Position numbers and translations under genes: made by a program | The notes under the pieces: model-generated | Databases searched by the model: none | The model's input: the letters and a program-made list of their open reading frames with translations, nothing else | What the model was told of the DNA's origin: nothing | Part shown: one piece after another, positions 716 to 63,148 of the stretch | Position numbering within the stretch: the stretch's first letter is position 1 | Layout: every line of letters begins with the position of its first letter | Assembly (NCBI GenBank): GCA_025449115.1 | Contig: JAHLKC010000155.1 | Span: 26,191 to 90,190 of the forward strand | Direction of reading: 5' to 3' | Origin: Chytridium lagenaria | Taxonomy: Eukaryota; Chytridiomycota; Chytridiomycetes; Chytridiales; Chytridiaceae | DNA: 64,000 nt

Positions 716-2218
716 ACAGACAAACTCCTGAGAAGGCATCATGCTCAAAGAATCGCAATATGTATACCCGAATTATTACGACGAGATGTTCTCGAATACT
801 TACATGACGACCTGTTTGGTGGACATCTATCAGACAGCAAAATACGACCAACATTTTTAGAGCGATTTTGGTGGCCCACAGTAAATGCCGATTTAAAAGA
901 TCATGTAAAGTCATGTGAAACCTGCGTTAAAGCAAAAGACGTCACCTATAAACGATTAGGAATAATCAGACCAGTGCCAGCAGGTGAAACACCCTGGGAG
1001 CGCGTAAGCATAGACGCCGTTGGCCCTTTTAAGAACTCTGCGCGAGGAAACAAGTATATCATTGTATTGACTGACCACTTCACAAAATGGGCTGAAGCCT
1101 ACGCTGTTCCATCCCTTGAAGCGGACGTTGTTGCCAGAGTCCTAGTTGAAGAAGCTTTCTGTCGATATGGTATCCCCTTGTACGTTCAAACTGACAGAGG
1201 ACAGCCATTTGCCAGTCAATTGATGATGAGAATTTCGCGAATACTTGGTGCACGTAAAACCTTTTCAATGCCTTACAACCCCAGATCAAATGGACTGGTA
1301 GAACGATTCAACAAAACTCTCTGTCAAATGCTTAGAAGTTATGTCGACATATATTTAAACGATGACTGGGATCAGTTTATCCCTTATGTTCTTTTTGCAT
1401 ATCAGACAACTGTCCAACCATCCGTCGGAGATTCACCCTTCTTCTTGCAATTTGGAAGTGATGCACGCGTTCCTGCAGACTTATTCTTTGGCGATATTGC
1501 CGAGCAATTAGACCCCCCTCCAAACAATTTTACAAAAAGTCCTGATGACGACAAAAATGATGACATCCCCTTAGCCATTGAGCATCTAGTGGAAGAGAAC
1601 TTTGCCACCACCACAGGTATTTCCCCGCACATAGTTGTTTGGCGTGTAAAAAACATGAAGACAGCACTTACGTCAGCTGCAAAGAAGTTATATGACCACC
1701 CCGTGGACTTACCACCTGACGAAATGCTAAGGCAAATGATCAGCCGACATAACATTGATATTTTATACATTATACATGACAGAAACGCTGATAAAGTTAT
1801 ACAAAAAGGAAGACGACGACCACAATGGCCGCCGTATATACATCCCGGCACACGAACTTTTCAGTTTGAGCGAAAAGACAGTCGAGAAGTTGACCTAGCA
1901 CTTAAGATTTATACGTCGCCAGGTATAACCCTCAGGATGATGCAATATGAAAACCTATTCTCCCTGACACCACATGGATGTCTTTGCTACGGAAGAAATA
2001 TAATTCTGGACCCAATGGATCAACATATAGCATCAGGCACACCGTTATGGTCCACTCCAACATCTCCAATAACTTTGGATTTCACTGCGGAAAGTTTAGA
2101 ACATGCACCTCTAACATTAGCACTAACCGACGAAAGTTCAGTACGTTTGATGCCATCAGATAACGTACAACAAGTTTTGGAAGACAACCCACCGCCGGTT
2201 TATCCGATTTTAGCATAG
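716..2218 (+). pseudogene. Ty3/gypsy pol fragment: integrase plus an extra C-terminal domain
   Basis: This is the integrase part of an LTR-retrotransposon polyprotein, which in a live element inserts cDNA into the genome. The frame is open from 716, well before the first ATG at 974. The zinc-binding H-x6-H (around 803-828) and CETC (C-x2-C) come first, then the RNase H-fold core with D in SIDAVGP, D in QTDRGQPF and E in GLVERFNK, so the DDE triad is intact. After the core, where a GPY/F module normally follows directly, there are about 220 residues of a different domain (roughly 1,560-2,200) that matches in outline the same position of the gypsy copy at 58.6-59.3 kb. Protease, RT and RNase H are absent on the left, so the copy is 5'-truncated. 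The frame ends at TAG 2216-2218 and the coding signal continues in other frames. Confidence 0.85.
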
Positions 2219-2972
2219 AATTAATCCACAGACTACGCGTAGCCCGAGGCATTGCCGCAGAGAATAACAGGAAAGCACAGGAACGTATGAAAACACGCTC
2301 AGAAACCACAGACCGAGAGTTTGACTTTAAAGAAGGTGATAGAGTATGGCTAGCCGTACCACTGCGTGCTGCTAAAGGATCGTCTCCCTTAACTCAAAAT
2401 TCATGTTCCGATGGTCCGGACCCATGAGGGTTATTGGCAAAGAAGGTGAGAAGTTTCAGTTAGTTGAAACGCTCCCTGGACAATGTATTATGGGTAGAGT
2501 ATCTCATCGTGGTCGAATGAGACCATATTCATCACGAAAACCTCTTACGGCAGCTGAAGAAGCTGCAATGAAAGCAGAAGATGACTATGAAGCAGAAATC
2601 AAAAAATGGGAAGATTGCACCATCGTTCGAAAACGACCTCCAGGCAGACAAATTAGCAGCGGAGTGAATCCACTCTTAAGACGCCGTTTTGATGATGACT
2701 TTGACGAAACGTTGGAGGAAGAGGATCCAGAATATGAAATTGAAAAAGTTGTAAAACACGTTAAATATGACGGAATGCCTTATCAATATGAGATTAAATA
2801 CAAATCCTGGCCGTCATCCTATAACGATTGGCATGATGAAGATGACCTGCCAAAAGAATCCGTTGCCCAGTACTGGGAAAGCAATAAACAGACTAAGGAG
2901 TCTGAATACAGGAAATATTTCCAGCACACTCAAAGTAAAGCTGCATTAAAAAAGAGATCTACAAAGAAATGA
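2219..2972 (+). pseudogene. Ty3/gypsy pol tail: GPY/F-like module and chromodomain
   Basis: Coding continues after the integrase frame: the stretch with FKEGDRVWL lies in frame 1 near 2,314-2,390 and the frame starting at 2403 carries FRWSGPMRVIG, an arrangement typical of the module after gypsy integrases. At least two single-base shifts therefore separate 974 from 2972. The chromodomain near 2,735-2,890 reads YEIEKVVKH, then IKYKSWPSSYNDW and DLPKESVAQYW, with the usual aromatic positions partly kept. Chromodomains direct chromovirus integration to marked chromatin (family knowledge). The product ends in a Lys-rich tail at 2972. Confidence 0.8.
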
Positions 2973-44270: not shown

Positions 44271-45437
44271 TATAGTTCTCGATGTGGGGTTTAGATTGAG
44301 GCATTAAGAACGTGGGTGCGAATATACTACATTTGCAGCGAATGCAGAAACGATGTCGCTTTGCAAAGATGGACAGGTGGGTTGACGTCCAGAAGTTTAA
44401 ACAAGAAGGGACTTCATTAATGCATGTTTTTGTGTTTTATGGGATCGAATTCTACTTACAATGGAGCTTTGACGCGCACGATGAAAGAATTTATGACAAT
44501 AATGTTGACGACTCAGCTATGGGAATTTAGCGGGACTTCCAGCGAGCATAAGTCTAAAGCCAATGCTTAGAAAAAGGAATAGAATAATGCTAGGGAGTAA
44601 ACGTCCCGATGCTTGTAATTGTGCTGTTAATATTAGAGTGTACTAAAACGAAAAGCAGAGAGGCCGGTATGTCATTTAATAACACATTGCAAATTAAGGA
44701 CAGCTATGCGCGATTGTGGTGTGGCTGCCCGAGCTACTAAGAGTATCGGGCGGAAGATTGGCAATGGCCGCTGATATGCCATCAAGTAACATCCTCTGAA
44801 ATGGTGGCATTAACGCGAAGACCACGGAGACTTTTGATGATGTAACAACGCTATTTTTGCGATTTAACAACGTTTTTTTGCGCAGGGCCCCAGAAAAACG
44901 TTCTTGCATTACAAAGTAGGAGGTTGAAGAGTTAGGATCATCTCTAGACCTACTCCTATAACCATTAACTGGTGTCGCGATGATTCAGCCGCTCACTTTT
45001 TGCAAAACAAATGCGATCAGTTCCGTTCAATCCTGCAAAGTATTTCCTATGTTGGGCAAAAGACAAGACCTGATCTTGCATTTACAATCAGTATACTAGG
45101 GTAATATCAAGCAAACCCTAATGCTGGGGACTTTGTTGCACTAGTTCGAGTTTTTTGTTATTAAATTGACATGCATGATTACGGTATCCTACAAGCGATT
45201 CAAAGCTGGAACCAAGGGCCTATTGACTGGATGAGCAAAATCCAAGTCATTCACACCCTTGAAGGAACTTTAGTTTGCCAATAATTATATATCAAGAATT
45301 TATTAGACTACTGTGGGCTATGAAATACCGGTATTACCTCTGAACCCACTCCTATGATGTGATATTCTCTTGACCCATCCCTCCGTACATAGCTTTGACT
45401 AGGGGGTAGGCGAGAAGAGTAAAGGAGTTGCTCCTTG
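44271..45437. other. stretch without a supported gene
   Basis: Only short open frames are present. At 45,357-45,435 about 75 bases are the reverse complement of 61,385-61,462 (GCAACTCCTTTACTCTTCTC ... GGATGGGTCAAGAGAA), so the copia remnant that follows has a relative near 61.4 kb. Confidence 0.45.
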
Positions 45438-49891: not shown

Positions 49892-52800
49892 ATGTACTGT
49901 CCATGCTGTGCTGAAGACGTCCCCTCCGTCACGTCTAGAAAGATGCTTGAGAACCACATTAGAGATGACCATGCTTCCAGTGGTGCTCTCATAACCTTGC
50001 TTCTGAAGCTTGATAGTGAAGCGACCATTGAAAGAGTCTTGACTATGGTTATTGGCGGCGGTTCCCACGCCCAAGCGCAGCCCCCTCTAGCCCAGCAGAC
50101 GCAACGACAGCCATCAAGTATAGGCGAGTCTCGCTCAGCAAAAGGCACCTACCATATTGAAACCAGGATGGCGGAAAAATAGTAAGATGGAGTTGCTTAA
50201 ATCTCTCATTTCTTTAGTGTTTTTGGGGTTGAGAAGCAACTTTTTAAGTTGAGCGCGGAGGAGAAGAAGGCCATAGATAGGATGACGGCGGAGCAGAAGA
50301 CGTTATCCGGAGCAATTCGAATGATTCCGCATTTGATTGAAGATGCAGCCGTAGCTGAAGCATTACGTACAAAGATTACCGAGGTAGGCAAAGCTCTGTT
50401 GTTTTAGTGATATTGAAGTTGTTAGGCCAAAGAGAAGTATCTTGCCGCTTACCGTGCTGGGTACACTCAACAAAATCCGAACGTTGCAAGCTATCAAGTC
50501 ACCAATAACAATCAAGTTCGCATTGTTTGGAAGACAGGAAAAGAATTCGAGGAGGTACTGCTTTTTTCTTCCATACATTAATCTTACTTCGAGGGCGAGG
50601 AGCAACGCAGACCTAGCTCTCCAAAGCTTAGAGTCGGTAGCAGTAAAGCCATCTACGTAGAAGATGACAGTGACAACGACGAGGTCCACGCGCAATACAA
50701 GCCTGCCTTGGGACAGTACATTGAAGGTTTGACGACAATTTTATTTAAACTAATGGGTATAGAACCTAAGATTGCCTCAAAAGGTCATCCACTTGCATTG
50801 CGGGTCGACGTGAGCAAAATTCGGAAGAAACAAGAAGAGGAGGAGGCTGAAAGCCGACCACGAACGCCATCGGAAGAATACGAGGATCGACCCGTTAGAA
50901 AAGGTGCGTAATCTTCCGCCCTCCCCTGCTTTTATTTACTGACTGAGATCGGGGAATATTCAATAAGAACAATTTCTGTCTTATAACGCACTTTTTCCTG
51001 GACAAGATAACGGAACTGATTACCTCAACAACATTCTCCTTTCACGCTTACTCAAAGCACTTACAGTCAAACTATAATGAGTTTGGTCGGGGAAGGTGCC
51101 TGTACAAGCCTCCTTCTAGTAAAGTCATATCTGCGGTAAGTCATCACTTGTCATAAATTTTTTTCCATTCCATTCCTGCAAGCTGGCCAGGTACTGCTTG
51201 ACCATCTGGATCAATGATCCAAATGCCCGCATACTAACGTTAACGGCGGTAATACACCGCAAATAAACGTATTTAACGTTTGCGGCCGTCTGTTTAAGTG
51301 TATAGCCGTAACGGCCGTATGCGTTAATTTTGTACCTACTTCCGGGAATCCCTAACTTTTTTTTAGGCTTGGTTTTCCTTTCGTAAGATACAAGATTTAA
51401 CCATGGGCATGGATATACAATGCCCATTCTGTAAGGAAACTGGCTACGATATGGTTGCTTGTGACGGTATCAGCATTGGTTATCAAGAAGACAAAAAGAC
51501 AAGCAACCTCATCCCACCAACATTCATCGATTCATACAGCAGTGAGAACAACACTGTGAACTACTTAGCGTCAAAACAGGTGAGAAATTCTTTTGCAGTG
51601 AATATTCTAATATGGCATAGTTTGTGCCTAGCAGAAATGTTAGAAAGGCAGGACGAGAGTTCTGCGATATATTCAAGCATGTGCATAACGGTGTTACGCG
51701 TCAAATGAAAGCAGCTGGAAAAGAGTTGGGATTGCTTTTAAACGTATACTGGGACAATGCACCGCGTTTCATGGCATTCATACTTAGAGATGAGACATGG
51801 ACCCCAGCTGAAATAGCGGCGCTTAGAACTTTGCTTAAAGTAGTGAGTATATTTCATTGTGCCGTATTACTCTTTGACCTATCGTAACATCTATAAAGAT
51901 ATTCTGTGAACAGTCAGTTGTTACAATCATATTGCCTGTCGGTGATAAATGTCTTCAGGAATTAGAACGCTGGGAGCAGCTAGATGTGCAGGAGAAGTTG
52001 ACTTTGATTGATGATCTTCGTCAAAACGTACCTTCAGTCGGCAATTTGTTATTTGAGGTCATTGTTGTTGGAAACAACACATATTTACCGGAAGAATTCA
52101 TCAAACTTGCTCAATGGTTAAGAAAGAGAAGGAATGTTGTTGAGAGCCAACATAGCCGCCATCCTGTAGCGGATCCAAAGACAACCGAACATGGAGATTA
52201 TGTGAACAAAAACTGGCAAAAAGTAAGTGCAGAAGCCGTACAAAACCCCATGTAACCGTATACAACCGTATACTGTTATGTACCTTTGCATACTGCCGTT
52301 TACGTTTGTGTGCGCCCGTCTTTGGACTCTGTTGATTAACGCTTTCAAAAGACAGGTTCCTTTTACTTTTTACCTGAAATACGGCAACGTCCACGATATC
52401 TCAACCTTGGACCTGCAGACAATCTACCTACAGCAGCTAAAAAGGGGACAACGGAAGCTGACGTTTGTCCTAAATATTACGACAGGCAGAGGAAGGCTAA
52501 ATCAATGACGGCCGGAGCAATGGTTTTTTTAAGTCGTCATCGATTTTATATTGGATTTCACATTTTTCCTAAAGCTGAAAGCATCAATGATGTTTTTCGC
52601 AACTCTATACACAAGGTACCATACAATTCAACAATTTAACTCTAAATCTTGCAGGTTTGAACAGTGCCCATCCATTTGTGTTGGTGATAATAATTGCCAT
52701 GCTGCAGACTACTGCACTTTGCGGGAGTACGAATCTTCAAAGATTGTCAATTTGTTATAGACAAATTTCATTCAAATGCTCACAGGGGCTGTTCCGCTGC

Positions 52801-54175: not shown

Positions 54176-54469
54176 AACCTCTTTGAGACTTACACATGGC
54201 GCAAACCATACCGCATTGAGACTGATCACTCAGCCTTAATCCCCCTGTTTGCTAGAGGTGTCCTGAAGGGCCGCTTTGCTTGATGGTCATACTCTCTACA
54301 GGATCACGAGATTGAGTTGGTTCATGTTCCCGGCAAGAGCCAGGCTGTTGCCGACGCTCTCTCACGCAGCTTCAGACCCCCAAAGCTATACCTGACGATG
54401 ACTTAGAGGTTGGTGACTTCCCTGAGACCGCCCCTCGAGTCTTTATCGGAAAAGATGCTAAAGTTAGGG
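54176..54469 (+). pseudogene. Ty3/gypsy RNase H, second part
   Basis: The frame continues from 46,782: FETYTWRKPYRIETDHSALI, then LQDHEIELVHVPGKSQAVAD and ALSR, the C-terminal RNase H blocks of gypsy elements. A TGA replaces an expected Arg codon before Trp-Ser-Tyr, and a one-base shift follows ALSR. It is interrupted at 54,469 by element B copy 2. Confidence 0.85.
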
Positions 54470-56080
54470 TCATATCACCTATGTTAAAACCGTTGACATA
54501 TGTTACAAAGTACTGGTTTGAAACCGGGTTAGGGCGTATACGGCCGGAACGGCGTATACGCCCTGAATTGAACCAGCATCAATATGTAAACAAAATCACG
54601 GCCATGTACGGCCTTATACGGCCTTACCCAGCTGGTGGTTGTACATGGCCTGGTGGTTGGCGCAATATTTGGCGCCACATTTAGCCAACGACATACGTTT
54701 ACCCTTCAACCACTTTGGGATTAAATCATTGGGTATGCACCAGATCTTGCCAGGTATGGCTGTCTGTCCCCACCGCCCACACAAAGCACAGAATATCCTG
54801 ACGTGTACAGCCCAATTTGGCGCTTGTAAACCATCAATTAAATGGCCGTGTACGGCCCATTGGTCAGGAAATATGATTATTTGGTACCCCCTTTGCGCCG
54901 CACCGCACGGGTACGTCCAATCAAGGCCGTAACCGCACGGGTACGTCCAAATAAGGCCGTGACCGCACGGGTACGTCCAATTAAGGCCGTAACCGCACGA
55001 GTACGTCCAAAGATGGCCAATTATACAAGCTGTTTGAACCATTTGCTATCGCAATTGCTAACTTCTGAAGAATATTTCATAAAATTAATTGATTAAGGTA
55101 GAAGTACTAACATTAACCTTTCACAATGCGTCAGTCGTCTCTGCAAAGTTTCAGTAAAAGATTTAGTGCTAACGTAGCGGAAAAAGCGCATGGCACGCGA
55201 TGCAAGAGCGTTAAAAGCTGCAACAGTACCTAAAGGCATCCACTCATTGAGCGCTTTCAAATGATATAAACACACATATGCCGAATATGTCTGCCCGCAT
55301 TTGGCTTCTTCATCTGAAAGCTTTGACACCCATGCCTTTAAAACTACACCAGTTCGTTAAGCCTAAAACTTTGATTTTAAGGTCAAGCGTGGACAACTAC
55401 TTGGTTTAAAAAAAAACAGCTTTGGGGACTTCATCGGTGATGGTTTCACACCTCTATCACGTCTCTAGAGTATTTTATTGAGTTTTGAAGTCAAATTTTG
55501 TGTTTACCAAGCTGGGAATAATAATTGCAAGACGGCACAGAGCGTTAGAAGCTGCCACAGGTACGTGGGAGATTCCACAAATTAAGAGCTTTCAAATGAT
55601 ATTATACACATATGCTGAACATGTCTGTCCGCATTTGATATTTTTAAATGACAGCTTTTGACACGCATGCCTTAAAGCTACACCAGTCTGTTAAGGCTAA
55701 ACTCTAATTGCAAGTTAACCGTGGACTAATACTTGGTTTAAAACAAACAGCTTTGGGGAGTTCTTCCGTGATGGTTTCACACCTCCATCACGTCGCTAGA
55801 GTGTTTTATTGAGTTTTGAAGTCAAATTTTGTGTTTACCAAGTTGGGAACAACAATTGCAAGACGGCACCGAGAGTTAGAAGCTACCACAGGTACGTGGG
55901 AGATTCCGCAAATTAAAAGCTTTCAAATTTAACACACATTATCAAACACGTCAAATTTAACACACATTATCAAACACGTCCGTCTTGATTTTTTTCATTG
56001 ATTTAAAGTCACCGCTTGACTCAGTCTGGGGCCTTCTAGGCCATGTTCGACCAGTTACGTGTGTATACAGACTGTACTGT
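54470..56080. mobile_element. element B, copy 2, right end missing
   Basis: The segment matches 4,570-6,228 with small indels, starting at the same GGGTCATATCACC end and stopping at CTGTACTGT. The ~55-bp array and the right inverted end present in copy 1 are absent, and the expected duplication of TAAAGTTA is not found on the right, so the right part was deleted. The 30-bp array has about 3.6 units here (from 54,911), and a 28-bp tandem duplication lies at about 55,925-55,980. It interrupts the gypsy pol between RNase H and the nuclease domain. Confidence 0.85.
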
Positions 56081-58359
56081 CCACGTCTTTTCTCCTTCCC
56101 AAAAACGGGAGTTTGGCTCTGATCGACCATTGCTTTCCAGTGAGGTTATCTTCCCTGAACAGCTCATTGACAACGTCTTTGTTAGGATAAAGTCATCTCG
56201 ATTGAAGGACATTCTCGAGAGACGCAGACTATTTTGAATATCAAAAACGGGAGTTCACAGGAACTACCCAATTCTGGATTTGTCAGGTGCCTGATCCTGA
56301 GGTCAACACCTCTCGTGCACCTAGGCACATACCTGGACAGATTACCCATGTCATAACGGTTAATGCTGGTATACCACCAGATGCTGTAAACTACCCAGTG
56401 CCTGATACTGGCCCAAAATCTCTAAGTGGTTTTTATGCCTATGAGATACTTGAGATACGTGAGCTATTCTCACCCCTCAATGAAAAGAGAACTACTACAG
56501 ACTCACCCCCATCTCTACGCGAGATATATGGCGTTGAGAGAAAAACGGCCCTGCCTGATGTTTCTTCTCGTATGATCCATGACTTCCCATCAAAGTTAAT
56601 GAAAAGGTTATATTCCATTGATGATATACAAACACCATTCCGCTCTTCCAAGTTGAAGATTATAAGTTGGAATGTGAACAGCCTTCAAGCTCTTGTTAAG
56701 AAGCACTTTGCAAAGAGAATTGAAGGTGATGAGTCCAATAGAGCAGAGTTCTTTGCTATGTATTTGGAGGAAATGGAATGTGACATGGCCTGCTTTCAAG
56801 AGACTATGGTTGGCGATGGTCATGAAAAGTTTTGGCAACAACTGAAGTCCGTCCGTGGATGGAAGATGTATGCTGACGACAAAAGAAATGGACAAAATGG
56901 TGTTATGACCATGGTCCGCAAAGATATCCCCGTACTTTCAGTGATATGCGGGACTCATATGATGCGCACTGACTTTGACGACTTTGTTGAAGAAGGACGG
57001 TGCCTTACACTCTGCCTTTTAGGTATGAATATTGTGAATGTCTATGCGCCGAACGGCACGAGGTATGATCACAGACAGGAATACAAAATGAAGTTCCTGG
57101 AACGACTACATACTTTTGTAAAGAGTCTCAAAGCTCAGTCAAATACAATTGTTGTAGGGGATTTCAATATTGCTCACAAAGCAATTGATGTTCGCGAACC
57201 ATCCAGATTTTATGGATACTCTGGATTCCGCAATGATGAACGCTACTGGGTTAGCTCATTCATTAACTTAGCTTTTAAGGATGGATTTCGTCATAGCCAT
57301 CCGCATACGCCAGCATATTCTTGGCATGATCCAACAGAGTTCTATAAAGCTGTTTGGAGAATAGACTACGCCTTTGTAGATAAACGAATTCCTTGTAAAT
57401 GGAATGTTAACCACCATTTCGTGGCGTCACTGACTGACCATGAAATGGTTAAATTGGTCTTAGAGCACAGTGATGCTCACCACAATGATTTTGATAGCAT
57501 GATCTCATTGCCGGCACTTGACCTACCTGATCAAGAGCCACCGCATGAAGCCCCAAACAACCCCGGGCCTTCTGTAAATGATAGGAATTCAAATACTGTC
57601 CCCAATACCTTCATGGCTAATGGGCAGATATCTGGTGACTTTATTAAGGCCCAAAGAAAAGACTTGAGATTTGCCGACGTCATCAAGTTTCTTGAAAAAG
57701 GAATCCTTCCTGAGGATCCTGATCTTAGGAAAGGTGTTCTAATGAACGCCCAAAATATGGTGATGCGTGGTAGAGCTCTCTACTGCGTACTCTATCTGAA
57801 GGACTACCTTATGCGACGATCGCCAGTGCGAGTCGCTTTATGTGTCCCCAAAAGACTGCAGGACGTTGCGTTTGACGCCGTCCATGATGATATGATGGCT
57901 GGAGGACACCTCGGTGTTTGCAGACTTATTGCCACCACCCTAGATAGGTTTTGGTGGCCGACTATCCAAAAAGACTTAGAGGCATATATACGACGATGCC
58001 CTACATGTAAACAATCTAAAGATAACTTGACTAGAAAAGGTGCCGTGAGGCCCATCCCCTTTGGTCATAGACCTTGGGATCGTGTTGCCATCGATATTGT
58101 TGGTCCTATCAACACCAACCAACGTGGCAAAAAGTACATTGTTGTCCTCACGGACTACTTTACCCGTTGGGCTGATGCTTTTGCCGTCCCCGACTTAGAA
58201 GCAAACACCATTGCTAGAATAGTCGTGGAGCAATGCTTCTGCCGCTTTGGAATTCCCTTGACCTTACACTCGGATCAAGGACAACCATTTCCTAGTGACC
58301 TATTTAAGAGAGCTGCTACTGTACTAGGAATGAAACAGTCTTTCTCCATGCCATATTGA
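56081..58359 (+). pseudogene. Ty3/gypsy pol: ExoIII/AP-endonuclease-like domain fused to integrase
   Basis: After a linker with one frame shift (near 56,206) a 690-codon frame (numbered from 56,287) holds two domains. Residues about 124-395 carry the exonuclease-endonuclease-phosphatase fold of the ExoIII/APE type: IISWNVNSL, ACFQET, VYAPNG, VVGDFNIAHK, WRIDYAFVD and SLTDHEM, so the metal Glu (172), the DxN pair (292, 294) and the final Asp-His (384, 385) are all kept. Residues about 525-690 are integrase: H533, H541, C571, C574 of the zinc site, then D603 (AIDIVGP) and D663 (HSDQGQPF). The frame meets a TGA at 58,357-58,359 where related elements have a coding residue. AP-endonuclease domains belong to non-LTR elements and DNA repair; their presence between RNase H and integrase of a gypsy element is unusual. 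The ORF has no sign of joining two elements between the domains. Confidence 0.85.
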
Positions 58360-60477
58360 CCTCAGGCCAACGGTTTAGTTGAACGAACAAACAAAACTTT
58401 ATGCCAGATGATACGTGCATATATAAACCAAAGAACACATGATGACTGGGATGAGATACTCCCCTATATGTTGTTTGCATACAGAACAACGGTCCACCAG
58501 ACCACAAATGAAACCCCATTCATGATGATGTTTGGCCGTGAAGCGTTTGCGCCGGCTGACCTTAACTTTGGATATCCCACAGACGACGTGTTTGCAGAAG
58601 AATACCCGGACCCCAGATTATGGGCTCAAACTGGAGATGAACCTCTGATTGCCGTATCCACTACTAGAGATACCGCAGAGGTTCTCCCCGAAATACTCGC
58701 CATGGTTTCTAACCAACCACATCTTCTTGATAACCGTCTGGCGCGAGCTGCTCACAATCTGTCAAGAACAGACGGTCGTGAACCGTACCTACTCATTGCT
58801 GATGTTCTGCAGAAATATGAGTATGATGTAATCTATCTTTTTCACTTTCATCCCATGAAAAGATTAAGTTATACATTTCAATGGAGATCCTTCCAAAGGA
58901 AACAAACACTCCCTATGCATGCCATTACCCGACGGGTCCGCATAATGCATGAAGGCAAAGGCAGAGATGTCTATACCACTGTTATCCATAGGGGATGTGC
59001 TACAGAGAAACCACACTTGCGTGATAGTTATCCGCTATTTGTTGATACTGGCATGAACCTATACTATCATGGCATACTGGTTTTATCACCATCCACTTCA
59101 ATACTAGACAACAGCAGGTCCCTTATAGCTGAAGGGCCTGTAATGCACGTAAAGATTATTGACTTTGAAGTCAACAACGACCAGGACGATTATGTTCCTC
59201 CTGACGATTATATTTCTCCTGAAAATGATATAGATACTGACACACATGTAAGTGTGCTCATGAATACTTGACAAGCCCTTCAGGACTTTGTCAAAGAATA
59301 CCTCAACGATGAAGATGATCGTTTAGAGGCTAAAGACTACGTTACTCAGCTAGCTGCTAGACTAGCATACTCAAAGCCGTACTCTTGCGTGCAGAACTCA
59401 AACGCAAGAGACGAGCACAACAAATAAACCCAGTCGCAACAAAGACTCGTTTGATGTTGGTGACCTGGTATGGCTCTCTGTTCCCTTGAAGACTGAACGT
59501 CGAGGGAAAGAGAACAAGAATGCCCCCACTAAGAAGTTCCAATTTAGATGGGCCGGCCCTATGCGTGTCCTTAGTAAATCTATGGACAGCAATAGATACA
59601 CAGTTGTAGAGCTCCTCCCTGGAGGCCAGCTCTTATCACGACTTGCTAACGCTGCTAGACTCAGACCATTTGAGTCTTTGCCGCCTACAGAAACTGCTAA
59701 TGCTGCATCTGCAGAAGTAGCTTCAGATGACTTTGCTGCTGAGATTGCAGCATGGAAAGAACTCCAAGTTATTAGACGCATGCCTAAGAATAAGGTAGCA
59801 GTTGGAGTTAATCGCGAATTGTTTCGACGATTTGATGAAGAAGTCGCTGATGCCGACTATAATGATCCTGAGTTCTATGTTGAGAAACTGGATTATCATA
59901 CTTATGATTCTCATAACAACAAGTATAAGTATTATGTTAAATGGCTCGGTCATGGAACCGCGCATAACCTTCTCATGGATGAAGAAGCCTTACCCCCATC
60001 CATAGTTAAAGATTACTGGGACCGTGTTGCTAAAACACAGCCCACAGCATATGCTCTCAGAGTAGTATATGAAAAGAATGCTGGCCGCAAGAGACTTGCG
60101 CCTAAGCCCACATCCTACACGCTGCCTGAAGATAATGATGGTTATCGTAGTGAGGATGAAGATGAAGGTATCCTTGATGATACCCCTCCTAGCCCCATAA
60201 AGAAACGTAAGCGCAAAGCAAAACGTTCTTTACAGCAGGCTGTGCATATAGATTCTGATGACCAGAATCTATTGATAATGACGTTCCTCCGTCGGAACCT
60301 GATATAGACAATAATCTGGATGATGACTATCCTGACAAAAACTTTGAAGTACCACTAGCCATAGAGATGCTAGATGGTAACAATTATATAACCCTTGCCA
60401 ATACTTGGCCTTATAGACTTGCTCATAATGCAAGCTCTGATATATTTACAGATAGTTCTTATACTTCTGACAACTAA
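58360..60477 (+). pseudogene. Ty3/gypsy pol tail: integrase end, extra domain, GPY/F-like module, chromodomain
   Basis: After the TGA the integrase goes on with QANGLVERTNKTLCQ (catalytic Glu). From about 58,640 to 59,220 lies an extra domain with KYEYDVIYLFH and LYYHGILVLSPS, matching in place and pattern the extra domain at 1.56-2.2 kb. A TGA at 59,269-59,271 and shifts near 59,370 and 59,450 follow, then DVGDLVWLSVPL, FQFRWAGPMRVL and the chromodomain (EFYVEKLDYHTY, YYVKWLGHGTAHN, about 59,870-60,025). A basic nuclear-type run KKRKRKAKR lies near 60,200. The last shift is near 60,290 and the stop at 60,475-60,477, 43 bases before the LTR. Confidence 0.85.
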
Positions 60478-60520: not shown

Positions 60521-60998
60521 TGTGAAGAATTACATTATTCACATGGCCTATGGCTCATAAGGACATTCCGTCTAAGTCCGTTGAGTTCCGTTATATCCCG
60601 CGTCGACGCGTATATTTACGCGTCATATTGAATCCTCCCTTCTTTTCCCTTTGGGTTTTTTATATATAGTTTTTCCCCATGTTTATAGGGTTTTTATTGA
60701 AGGAGGTGGCGCGCATATGTGCCGTTTATGTTGTGTGCATATGTTGTGTCTATTATTTATTTGTATTTTGTGTATTACTTTAATATGAGAGATTTCTTGA
60801 TTTAATTTGTACCTTGTTGAATTAAGTATTGATATTGAGTTGATCCCCTATCCTCTATCACACGCGCGTGGCCTCGCGCGTGATCTCCCTTCACTCTTAG
60901 TTGGATGACAGTCGACCCCTCTGCCCCCTTACCACCTGGTGAAGCTGCAATCCGGCCGTTTGAGACAGAAGGCTGTGATGGAATCCTCCTCATTCACA
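60521..60998 (+). repeat. candidate 3' LTR of the gypsy element
   Basis: A purine tract AAAAACGGGAGAA is followed by TGTGAAGAATTACATTATTC. The proposed end is CTCATTCACA at 60,998, so the ends are TGTGAA...TTCACA, giving 478 bp. A TATATATAG sequence lies near 60,660. No second LTR copy is present in the window, so the right boundary rests on the inverted ends only. Confidence 0.6.
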
Positions 60999-61603
60999 GT
61001 GTCCTTTAGTCAAGGCTTGGTCAGCTATATTCCACCTCTGTGCTCTCCGACCCGATGATCAGGCGCTAACGGCAGGCAATGAGTGAGGTTACCCTGTTCT
61101 AAGCTCTGAGAGGCAACGAGAGCCCATGTTCCAAAAGGTGCCATAGTAGGATGGCATGGAGACTTATAGCCATCCCCGATCGCCAGGAGACGATCTGGTG
61201 CTGATATTGGTTTATGAGCAAGGTAAGTCGATAATGAAGATACTAAACACGTTCCCTTCTCCCTTTAATAAGCAGAACCTCGCGATCACTCACCCACACC
61301 ATCGCCAAACAACAACAACATCACTTAGATTCAGGAGTACATCCTGTCCCTAGGTGCTCTGTGGACTTGCTCTGCTGGAGCAACTCCTTTACTCTTCTCC
61401 CCTACCCCTAGTCGAAGCTAGGTAGGGAGGGATGGGTCAAGAGAAGATCACAAAGTACGTAGAATCTAACTTCATTTTTTCACAAAAATTTTGGAAGGTT
61501 CCAAAATATCGGAACTCAAACGCTTAAACAATCGCTACCTTGTAAGCGCCAACGGTAACACTCAAATGCATTTGGCAGCTGGGAGGGAACCTTGGTAACA
61601 CTG
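60999..61603. other. stretch without a gene
   Basis: Contains a 75-bp stretch (61,385-61,462) that is an inverted match to 45,357-45,435, so it is part of another decayed repeat. No coding frame is supported. Confidence 0.4.
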
Positions 61604-62188: not shown

Positions 62189-62589
62189 TGTTGGGTTTAT
62201 TCATCTTTCTATTTTGTTTTTCTCACCCACATTCGTTATTTCGTCTAAGTTATTTTTCCCCCGAACCTGTTTGTTTTACGCGTTATTTTAAGTTTTTGAG
62301 TTGATCAGTTTCTTGAGCTCCTCATTCCATTTGAGGAAGCGTTAATCCCTTTAACCTTATTATTTATGTTTTATTTATGATACGTAATTGGAGGGATTTA
62401 CGGGTCATAAGTTCTGGTGTAAATCCCCACCCTCTACATGTATTGCGAAAAGTAGTTAACATTAATATATGGAAGTTTCGTAGTAATTACCTCCCTGTCA
62501 CCGCTGGAGACTCCATCACTATTCTTTATAGATTAATTCCCTTTATTAATAATTATAATTTAATTACAATTGAGCCCCGTAACCCTACA
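62189..62589 (+). repeat. copia 5' LTR (forward)
   Basis: 401 bp from TGTTGGGTTTATTC to CCCGTAACCCTACA. It is followed two bases later by TGGTAGCAC (62,592-62,600), a primer site of the initiator-Met tRNA type used by copia elements, so it is a 5' LTR. The same LTR in reverse lies at 62,748-63,148 with few differences. Confidence 0.85.
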
Positions 62590-62591
62590 AG

Positions 62592-62600
62592 TGGTAGCAC
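62592..62600 (+). other. primer binding site of the forward copia element
   Basis: TGGTAGCAC directly after the LTR resembles the common copia primer site TGGTATCAG that pairs with the 3' end of initiator tRNA-Met. The match is partial. Confidence 0.5.
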
Positions 62601-62707
62601 TTCACCTGGTTGGAAGGAGGAGTGAATCGATCCATTTGAGAGCCGAAGAGTAAAAAGAGAAAAGAGCATTCATCCCAAGAAAGAAAGCAAGCTGTCAACA
62701 CGAGAAG

Positions 62708-62750
62708 ATGACGAAAGAGAACGACGACAAACCGGTGATGTTTGATGTGT
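62708..62750 (+). pseudogene. first codons of a copia gag, cut by a second LTR
   Basis: ATG 62,708 opens MTKENDDKPVMFD, a plausible gag N-terminus at the right distance after the primer site. After 13 codons the reverse-oriented LTR begins (62,748) and a TAG follows. Confidence 0.5.
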
Positions 62751-63148
62751 AGGGGTTACGGGGCTCAATTGTAATTAAATTATAATGAATTAATAAATAG
62801 ATTTAAACTATAAAGAATCGTGATGGAGTCTCCAGTGGTGACAGGGAGGTAATTACTACGAAACTTCCATATATTAATGTTAACTACTTTTCGCAATACA
62901 TGTAGAGGGTAGGGATTTACACCAGAACTCATGACCCGTAAATCCCTCCAATTACGTATCATAAATAAAACATAAATAATAAGGTTAAAGGGATTAACGC
63001 TTCCTCAAATGGAATGAGGAGCTCAATAAACTGATCAACTCAAAAACTTAAAATAACGCGTAAAACAAACAGGTTCGGGGGAAAAATAACTTAGACAAAA
63101 TAACGAATGTGGGTGAAAAACAAAATAGAAAGATGAATAAACCCAACA
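62748..63148 (-). repeat. copia 3' LTR (reverse)
   Basis: 401 bp, read on the minus strand from TGTTGGG at 63,148 to CCTACA at 62,748. On its right the minus strand has the purine tract GAGGGGGAGAA, so it is the 3' LTR of the element whose pol end is at 63,158-64,000. It faces the forward LTR across 158 bp. Confidence 0.85.

Follow-up and report, generated by a model that had tools for sequence, protein, structure and literature searches.

An exonuclease III-type domain between RNase H and integrase in Ty3/gypsy elements of the chytrid Chytridium lagenaria

The stretch of DNA analysed here (hereafter the window) comprises 64,000 nucleotides of contig JAHLKC010000155.1 of Chytridium lagenaria and carries a copy of a Ty3/gypsy retrotransposon whose pol region encodes a nuclease of the endonuclease/exonuclease/phosphatase (EEP) superfamily. 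This exonuclease III/AP-endonuclease-type domain (56644..57471, + strand) lies in a stop-free frame of 717 aa (56206-58356, +), which also contains the H2C2 zinc-binding domain (57844..58023, +) and the catalytic core (rve; 58066..58356, +) of the integrase, both placed by Pfam. The Pfam matches obtained with this frame were Exo_endo_phos (E 1.2e-15, residues 153-395), Integrase_H2C2 (2.4e-15) and rve (7e-13). A first-pass annotation, made from the sequence alone, had placed an ExoIII/APE-type domain at 56656-57471; all six EEP motifs that it quoted were found in this one frame together with the integrase sites, and its end of the domain stands, the start being moved to 56644.

The other parts of the window copy were delimited mainly by comparison with a close relative elsewhere in the genome (copy C76). 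On the + strand, the translation of 54089..54280 matches the end of the C76 RNase H, and a short linker after RNase H (54412..54465, +) has residues identical to those of C76. In the frames listed from position 52000 onwards no reverse transcriptase (RT) was seen. About 1.6 kb of inserted or expanded sequence (54466..56081, no strand assigned), partly consisting of repeats and missing at this place in the C76 translation, separates the RNase H remnant from an ASCH-like (PUA-like) domain with its linkers (56082..56640, +). The split contains 30-bp tandem units (54902-55018) and a pair of 192-nt repeats (55406-55928). The frame changes near 56206-56234, an in-frame stop (58357..58359, +) interrupts the integrase, and the frame is broken again between 59268 and 59366. 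The end of the integrase core and a conserved stretch termed domain X (about 58680-59170) are found in 58360..59268 (+), followed by a frame (59366..60304, +) in which an SH3-like match (E 0.037) and a chromodomain-like match (E 0.025) fall short of the Pfam cut-offs. Thus, of the two neighbours named by the first-pass annotation, the RNase H is present as a remnant, and the chromodomain can be called only chromodomain-like. The element ends with a 3' long terminal repeat (LTR) of 932 bp (60521..61452, +; TGTGAAGA...GATCACA), which recurs many times elsewhere in the assembly. No 5' LTR of this copy was found within the window; a 77-bp piece of the same LTR family is present on the opposite strand at 45358-45434. 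The copy as a whole is in decay and lacks its 5' part.

A search of the 41.9-Mb C. lagenaria assembly with the window EEP revealed 149 matching stretches, many of which are fragments of one copy. Several copies belonging to the same Ty3/gypsy group as the window element (group A) are far better preserved. In copy C198 an unbroken frame encodes RT, RNase H, EEP, H2C2 and the integrase core; it is 2571 aa long and still open where the fetched sequence ends. Unbroken frames were also detected in C95 (1604 aa, spanning RT to integrase), C324 (1308 aa, spanning RT to EEP) and C76 (1039 aa, beginning inside RNase H and carrying EEP and integrase). The EEP domains of C198, C95 and C324 are 42-49% identical to that of the window, and that of C76 is 96% identical. 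In C198 and C95 the order RT, RNase H, H2C2 and DD(E) integrase typical of these elements is met within a single frame. Chromodomain matches at the C-terminal side had E-values of 4.1e-4 (C198), 1.6e-3 (C95) and 0.025 (window), all below the Pfam cut-off.

The association of the two domains was then counted across the genome, using 75 of the 149 EEP stretches, two more EEP stretches and 79 of the 115 integrase stretches; the entries dropped by hand were further fragments of copies already included. An EEP was located upstream, on the same strand and within 1.5 kb, in the case of 43 of the 53 integrase stretches with an identity of at least 48% and of five of the 26 below 48%, all five of which belong to a second EEP-bearing gypsy group (group B, see below). 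For the remaining 21 of these 26 distant stretches no EEP was listed nearby. This difference argues that the pairing of EEP and integrase is not due to chance. Ten of the 53 lack an EEP; among them, C152 begins 126 bases from a contig end, and an element at window position 716 has lost the corresponding part. A breakpoint between EEP and integrase, marking the fusion of two elements, was considered and rejected: the junction lies within frames of 2571, 1604 and 1039 aa, and 43 of 53 integrase stretches show the pairing. Judged from these frames and counts, an EEP between RNase H and integrase is a real architecture, shared by many copies and lineages, and the first-pass annotation is borne out on this point.

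The element at window positions 716-2972 is a second gypsy copy, with an integrase, a stretch that aligns with domain X and a chromodomain above the Pfam cut-off (1.8e-7). No EEP frame was seen upstream of position 716. It probably represents another EEP lineage, since in its close relative C6 (locus L049) an EEP adjoins the integrase. Domain X itself (about 170 aa) was recognized in group A, where it separates the integrase core from the chromodomain region (L039, L040, L042 and the window); its identity to the C198 row ranges from 19 to 54% in the other four rows, and it had no match in a search of PDB and no credible match in Pfam. Downstream of the window element, 62214-63125 forms a long inverted repeat (337-nt arms, 96% complementary, with a 238-nt spacer), i.e. 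a fold-back element or hairpin.

In group B the EEP directly follows RNase H, and the copies read (C115, C63, C158, C11 and a second place in C95) have no ASCH-like domain before it; C94 and C137 match this group by their EEP only. A single 653-aa frame of C11 runs from RNase H through EEP and H2C2 into the first part of the integrase core, and the order RT-RNase H-H2C2-integrase was read across adjacent frames of C11 and C115. Where compared, the RT of group B is 30-32% identical to that of group A. The same genome also contains canonical gypsy families without an EEP, in which RNase H leads to the integrase (C222, identified using Pfam, and C312, by reading). In a tree of RT and RNase H, which took in groups A and B, C222, C312 and one outside RNase H, group A joins the EEP-less families and not group B; a clade of A and B was not rejected (p 0.249), and the RT and RNase H data are compatible with one capture of the EEP as well as with two. 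The EEPs of both groups join weakly in a tree of 68 rows (92/60), and no longer join when ten long or partial rows are removed (58 rows).

The closest structures to the EEP in PDB are those of ExoIII (5j8n, E 2.8e-28; 5cfe, 1.3e-26), with APE1 next. The NCBIfam model TIGR00633 (xth), with a curated cut-off of 99.05 bits, is passed by both the window (151.4 bits) and group B (130.2 bits), and matches to the narrower ExoIII models TIGR00195, NF010489 and NF008733 remain below their own cut-offs. The catalytic and metal-binding residues N, E, Y, D, N, D, D and H are kept in every row that reaches them (the rows of C234, C104 and C6 lack the N-terminal sites and that of C104 also the E; the C6 row is cut before the final SDH, which is visible in its translation). 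On the strength of these profiles and residues we are sure that the nuclease belongs to the exonuclease III type.

The relationship to the nucleases of long interspersed nuclear elements (LINEs) was examined using the 68-row EEP tree, built from 45 of the 120 listed database matches as ExoIII rows (picked by number), proteins P0022 and P0003-P0006, and the rows of this genome, among which the labels LINE, APE1-like and APN2-like were assigned by eye from translations and from the genome places matched by P0012 and P0003. Five LINE-labelled nucleases form a distant group on a separate long branch. The EEP is placed after a gypsy RNase H and before an integrase, and not fused N-terminally to a non-LTR RT as in the LINE APE arrangement. 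The view of the first-pass annotation that the domain is ExoIII-like rather than LINE-like is therefore backed by similarity and by this tree; approximately unbiased (AU) tests left its attachment to the LINE nucleases unrejected (A with B, p 0.109; A alone, 0.436; B alone, 0.271). A LINE origin is thus not favoured, going by similarity and the first tree. The joining of A and B with host APE1-like rows (p 0.261) or with APN2-like rows (p 0.619, with an even slightly higher likelihood) was also unrejected, and the genome contains host genes of APE1-like (C71) and APN2-like (C26) appearance. For P0012, a bacterial-type ExoIII, the best genome matches are the element copies themselves (38% identity), not a host gene. 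A bacterial ExoIII, a host APE1-like gene or a host APN2-like gene are all possible donors, and none can be named, because every option tried survives the AU tests.

A further conserved domain of about 100-150 aa is present in group A between RNase H and EEP; both this domain and group B, which lacks it, had been missed by the first-pass annotation. It is single in C95 and, by reading, present as two tandem copies in C198 and C324. In a PDB profile search with the group A domain, four of the eight matches, and the top ones (E 0.08-0.11), were 5y6b, 5gus, 5y6c and 5guq, which we take to be ASCH domain proteins; the C95 domain alone matched only these four chains (E 0.08-0.22). In support of this label, a Zymomonas relative matches PF04266 narrowly (22.0 bits vs a cut-off of 21.2). 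Alignment of the element profile with that of seven bacterial ASCH proteins (hhalign) gave a probability of 93.5% over 98 columns (score 46.6). None of 200 column shuffles was as good (best 18.7), and the unrelated profiles A3 and A6 reached 0.14% and 1.8%. The seven proteins were chosen by eye, four of the five loci of one set (L110, unrelated, was dropped) and three of the eight of another, in which the five candidates left out seemed to be of another ASCH subtype or in a wrong frame. The domain of C95 has the motif G-x-R-x-x-E-x-R, corresponding to G-x-K-x-x-E-x-R of the ASCH chains and mostly lost in other lineages. It differs from ASCH proteins in remaining below the Pfam threshold and in forming a tandem pair in C198 and C324. 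An AlphaFold2 prediction for P0001, made with two more rows, had a mean pLDDT of 34.3 and says nothing on ASCH. Taken at the level of profiles, the domain is probably ASCH-like.

Selection on the EEP, a check proposed with the first-pass annotation, was estimated from the two of 15 pairs that proved measurable, giving dN/dS values of 0.042 (C324/C234; 246 codons, dS 0.86) and 0.092 (C76/window; 266 codons, dS 0.20). In the latter pair the integrase had a value of 0.102 and the ASCH-like part 0.334. These ratios indicate that the EEP is apparently under selection.

The mode of insertion was analysed using LTRs of two EEP-bearing families. The C95 element has two LTRs that are 98.2% identical, and its family, with the ends TGTGAAAT...ATTTCACA (TG...CA), has 43 matches in the genome. 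An exact 4-bp duplication was found at 11 of 17 insertions (14 single LTRs and three outer pairs), or at 10 of 16 distinct ones, since two of the 11 share one flank; the patterns of the LTR ends were set after inspection and the variant ends of L066, L079 and C82 admitted, otherwise the count is eight of 17. As a control, left and right flanks of different insertions agreed in two of 272 comparisons. In the window copy's LTR family, ten LTRs were fetched and four set aside as 5' LTRs of longer elements (recognized by shared right-side sequence); five of the remaining six had an exact 4-bp duplication, compared with 0 of 30 in the control. The target site duplications (TSDs) argue that insertion is of the integrase type. 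The proposal of the first-pass annotation that the nuclease offers a second way to nick targets consequently finds no support in the insertions of these two families.

Searching with the EEP profile for relatives yielded 230 proteins with E-values of 1e-10 or lower, 120 of which were listed. Among the matches listed with an organism stated, all are bacterial or archaeal ExoIII, with the sole exception of P0022 from Dinochytrium kinnereticum, which represents another genus of the family Chytridiaceae. This protein (235 aa) is 70% identical to the C324 copy over 234 aa, an alignment that takes in a portion of the upstream domain and the beginning of the EEP. No integrase was seen beside it, because the contig is only 1087 bp long. 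A second genus thus shows the same pairing of upstream domain and EEP. No full-length EEP-bearing pol from another organism was listed by searches that reach only relatives sharing short exact words, and one scan of viral contigs detected no relatives of the EEP alignment. Another observation concerns P0004 and P0006, in which an N-terminal ExoIII domain is fused to a reverse transcriptase with RVT_1 and PF13655 (P0006 also has PF08388); judging by the meaning of these Pfam families, the RT domains are presumably of the group II intron type, which would make them a different type of retroelement carrying ExoIII.

Fungal chromodomain Ty3/gypsy elements have a common anatomy, with a set order of pol domains between LTRs and a short TSD. 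The elements described here share with these chromoviruses (PMC2864245) RT, RNase H, H2C2, the DD(E) integrase, a chromodomain-like end, LTRs and a short TSD, but have in addition an EEP between RNase H and integrase (in one group also the ASCH-like domain) and a stretch between the integrase core and the chromodomain. With Exonuclease III (Xth, TIGR00633) they have in common the whole catalytic domain, its catalytic residues and a score over the cut-off, the difference being that the nuclease is part of a retrotransposon polyprotein and not a stand-alone repair enzyme. The APE-type endonucleases of LINEs belong to the same superfamily and are likewise carried by retroelements; in our elements, in contrast, the EEP follows RNase H in an LTR element equipped with an integrase.

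Nuclease capture by LTR elements has a precedent in bdelloids, whose retrotransposons acquired a DEDDy exonuclease (ORF3) at least twice, with no significant departure from neutrality for the extra ORFs (according to PMC5408684); that enzyme is DnaQ-like and encoded by a third ORF, not inside pol. In Kuafuorterviruses, which also have LTRs and reverse transcription, Exo_endo_phos is described in PMC11673190 as only sporadic and perhaps host-derived, the closest remark found in print, whereas here the EEP keeps one position in many copies and lineages. Elsewhere EEP is tied to LINEs (passages of PMC10799480 and PMC3441728) or named as the endonuclease domain in a figure of methyltransferase-encoding retrotransposons (PMC5890265, that figure). 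Among the top papers listed by searches of the open-access literature, with passages of PMC3248453, PMC6338049, PMC9926174 and PMC5348765 included, neither an ExoIII/APE domain as a fixed part of a Ty3/gypsy pol nor an ASCH domain in an LTR element was described. What is new here, as read from the frames, is a real and repeated presence of an ExoIII-type EEP inside Ty3/gypsy pol, across many copies and lineages. For an LTR element, the adjoining ASCH-like domain may be a first case; two papers found with both terms do not treat it, going by their titles and the opening of their abstracts.

ExoIII-type enzymes cut abasic sites and trim or free blocked 3' ends, and some of them also digest the RNA of hybrids; cellular ExoIII and APE1 perform such cutting and 3'-end cleaning in base-excision repair. 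The interpretation to which we give about an even chance is that these are integrase-dependent Ty3/gypsy elements whose pol-encoded ExoIII-type nuclease acts on the element's own cDNA. The staggered cut in the target would be made by the integrase and not by the EEP, which points to the cDNA as the likeliest place of action of the latter. Before or at integration, the EEP would cut abasic or damaged sites and clean 3' ends, possibly also removing primer RNA, and cDNA processed in this way would offer the integrase usable ends. The ASCH-like domain would probably assist nucleic-acid binding. A role in cDNA processing or repair is thus favoured, at the level of sequence, over that of a second target nicker.

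Several observations weigh against this interpretation. Other gypsy families of the same genome work without an EEP, and substrate preference is not readable from sequence. In group B, Ala replaces the Asn of the PNG motif. Thirteen of the 15 EEP pairs are saturated at synonymous sites, and the copies that gave both dN/dS values have frame breaks elsewhere, so that part of the time separating them may be decay, which would raise these values. An exact 4-bp duplication is missing at six of 17 and one of six LTR insertions, single LTRs are linked to EEP elements by LTR identity and not by internal sequence, and the counts cover only the LTR families of C95 and of the window copy. The C95 copy is flanked by a duplication of about 217 bp (L062 12-227 and L040 9108-9324, 97.7% identical). 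As for the ASCH-like domain, it has no match to PF04266 or to NCBIfam models, two other lineages searched alone gave no ASCH match in PDB, and the row sets taken apart score only 53% (the EEP-adjacent copy, 37 columns) and 75% (the first tandem copy, 99 columns).

Among the alternatives, it is conceivable, if rather unlikely, that the EEP mainly removes RNA (the tRNA primer, the purine-tract primer or RNA:DNA remnants) by an RNase H-like activity. Such an activity is known in the ExoIII family, and the EEP lies behind RNase H in groups A and B alike, immediately behind it in the latter; however, the elements already encode an RNase H and no sequence sign of a preference for RNA was found. It is improbable that the ASCH-like domain and EEP form a counter-defence or competition module directed against modified or foreign nucleic acid and unconnected with the element's own replication. 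ASCH/PUA-like folds bind RNA or modified nucleotides, and the two domains lie side by side in the window's group, but the group B copies read have the EEP without an ASCH-like domain, and the ASCH-like part is less constrained than the EEP (dN/dS 0.33 vs 0.09 in the C76/window pair). A bolder combination seems to us distinctly improbable, namely that pol acquired an ExoIII in one and the same slot on at least two occasions, in two separate gypsy groups, and that, in addition, ASCH-ExoIII is a self-contained module, in which a reader of modified nucleotides would steer a repair nuclease, own cDNA being told from modified host DNA and processed or protected. We consider it very improbable that the EEP nicks target DNA and thereby opens a second, LINE-like (target-primed) route of insertion. 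LINEs do use a relative of the EEP to nick their targets, and the C95 copy with its long flanking duplication has a 5' LTR end short by about 9 bp; this duplication is an atypical event, seen once, and against such a route stand the exact 4-bp TSDs beside both LTR ends (11 of 17 and five of six) and the similarity of the EEP to ExoIII. Finally, the decay of the window copy and its upstream inserted sequence might suggest that two elements came together by chance or that the assembly is in error. Both are refuted beyond reasonable doubt by the many copies in divergent lineages, by the occurrence in a second genus of an EEP preceded by the same domain and by the unbroken frames across the EEP-integrase junction.

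Processing of the element's own cDNA therefore remains the interpretation that we prefer, at the strength given above. LTR retroelements are generally considered to depend on host repair for mending their cDNA and completing integration, and LINEs carry an EEP nuclease to start insertion. The architecture described here suggests that the EEP elements supply a DNA-processing enzyme of their own for their copying and insertion. An ExoIII-type nuclease beside an integrase would constitute a natural test of what a repair nuclease adds to an integrase-driven element, and these elements would also allow one to ask how retrotransposition is held back by abasic sites and by 3' ends that are blocked.
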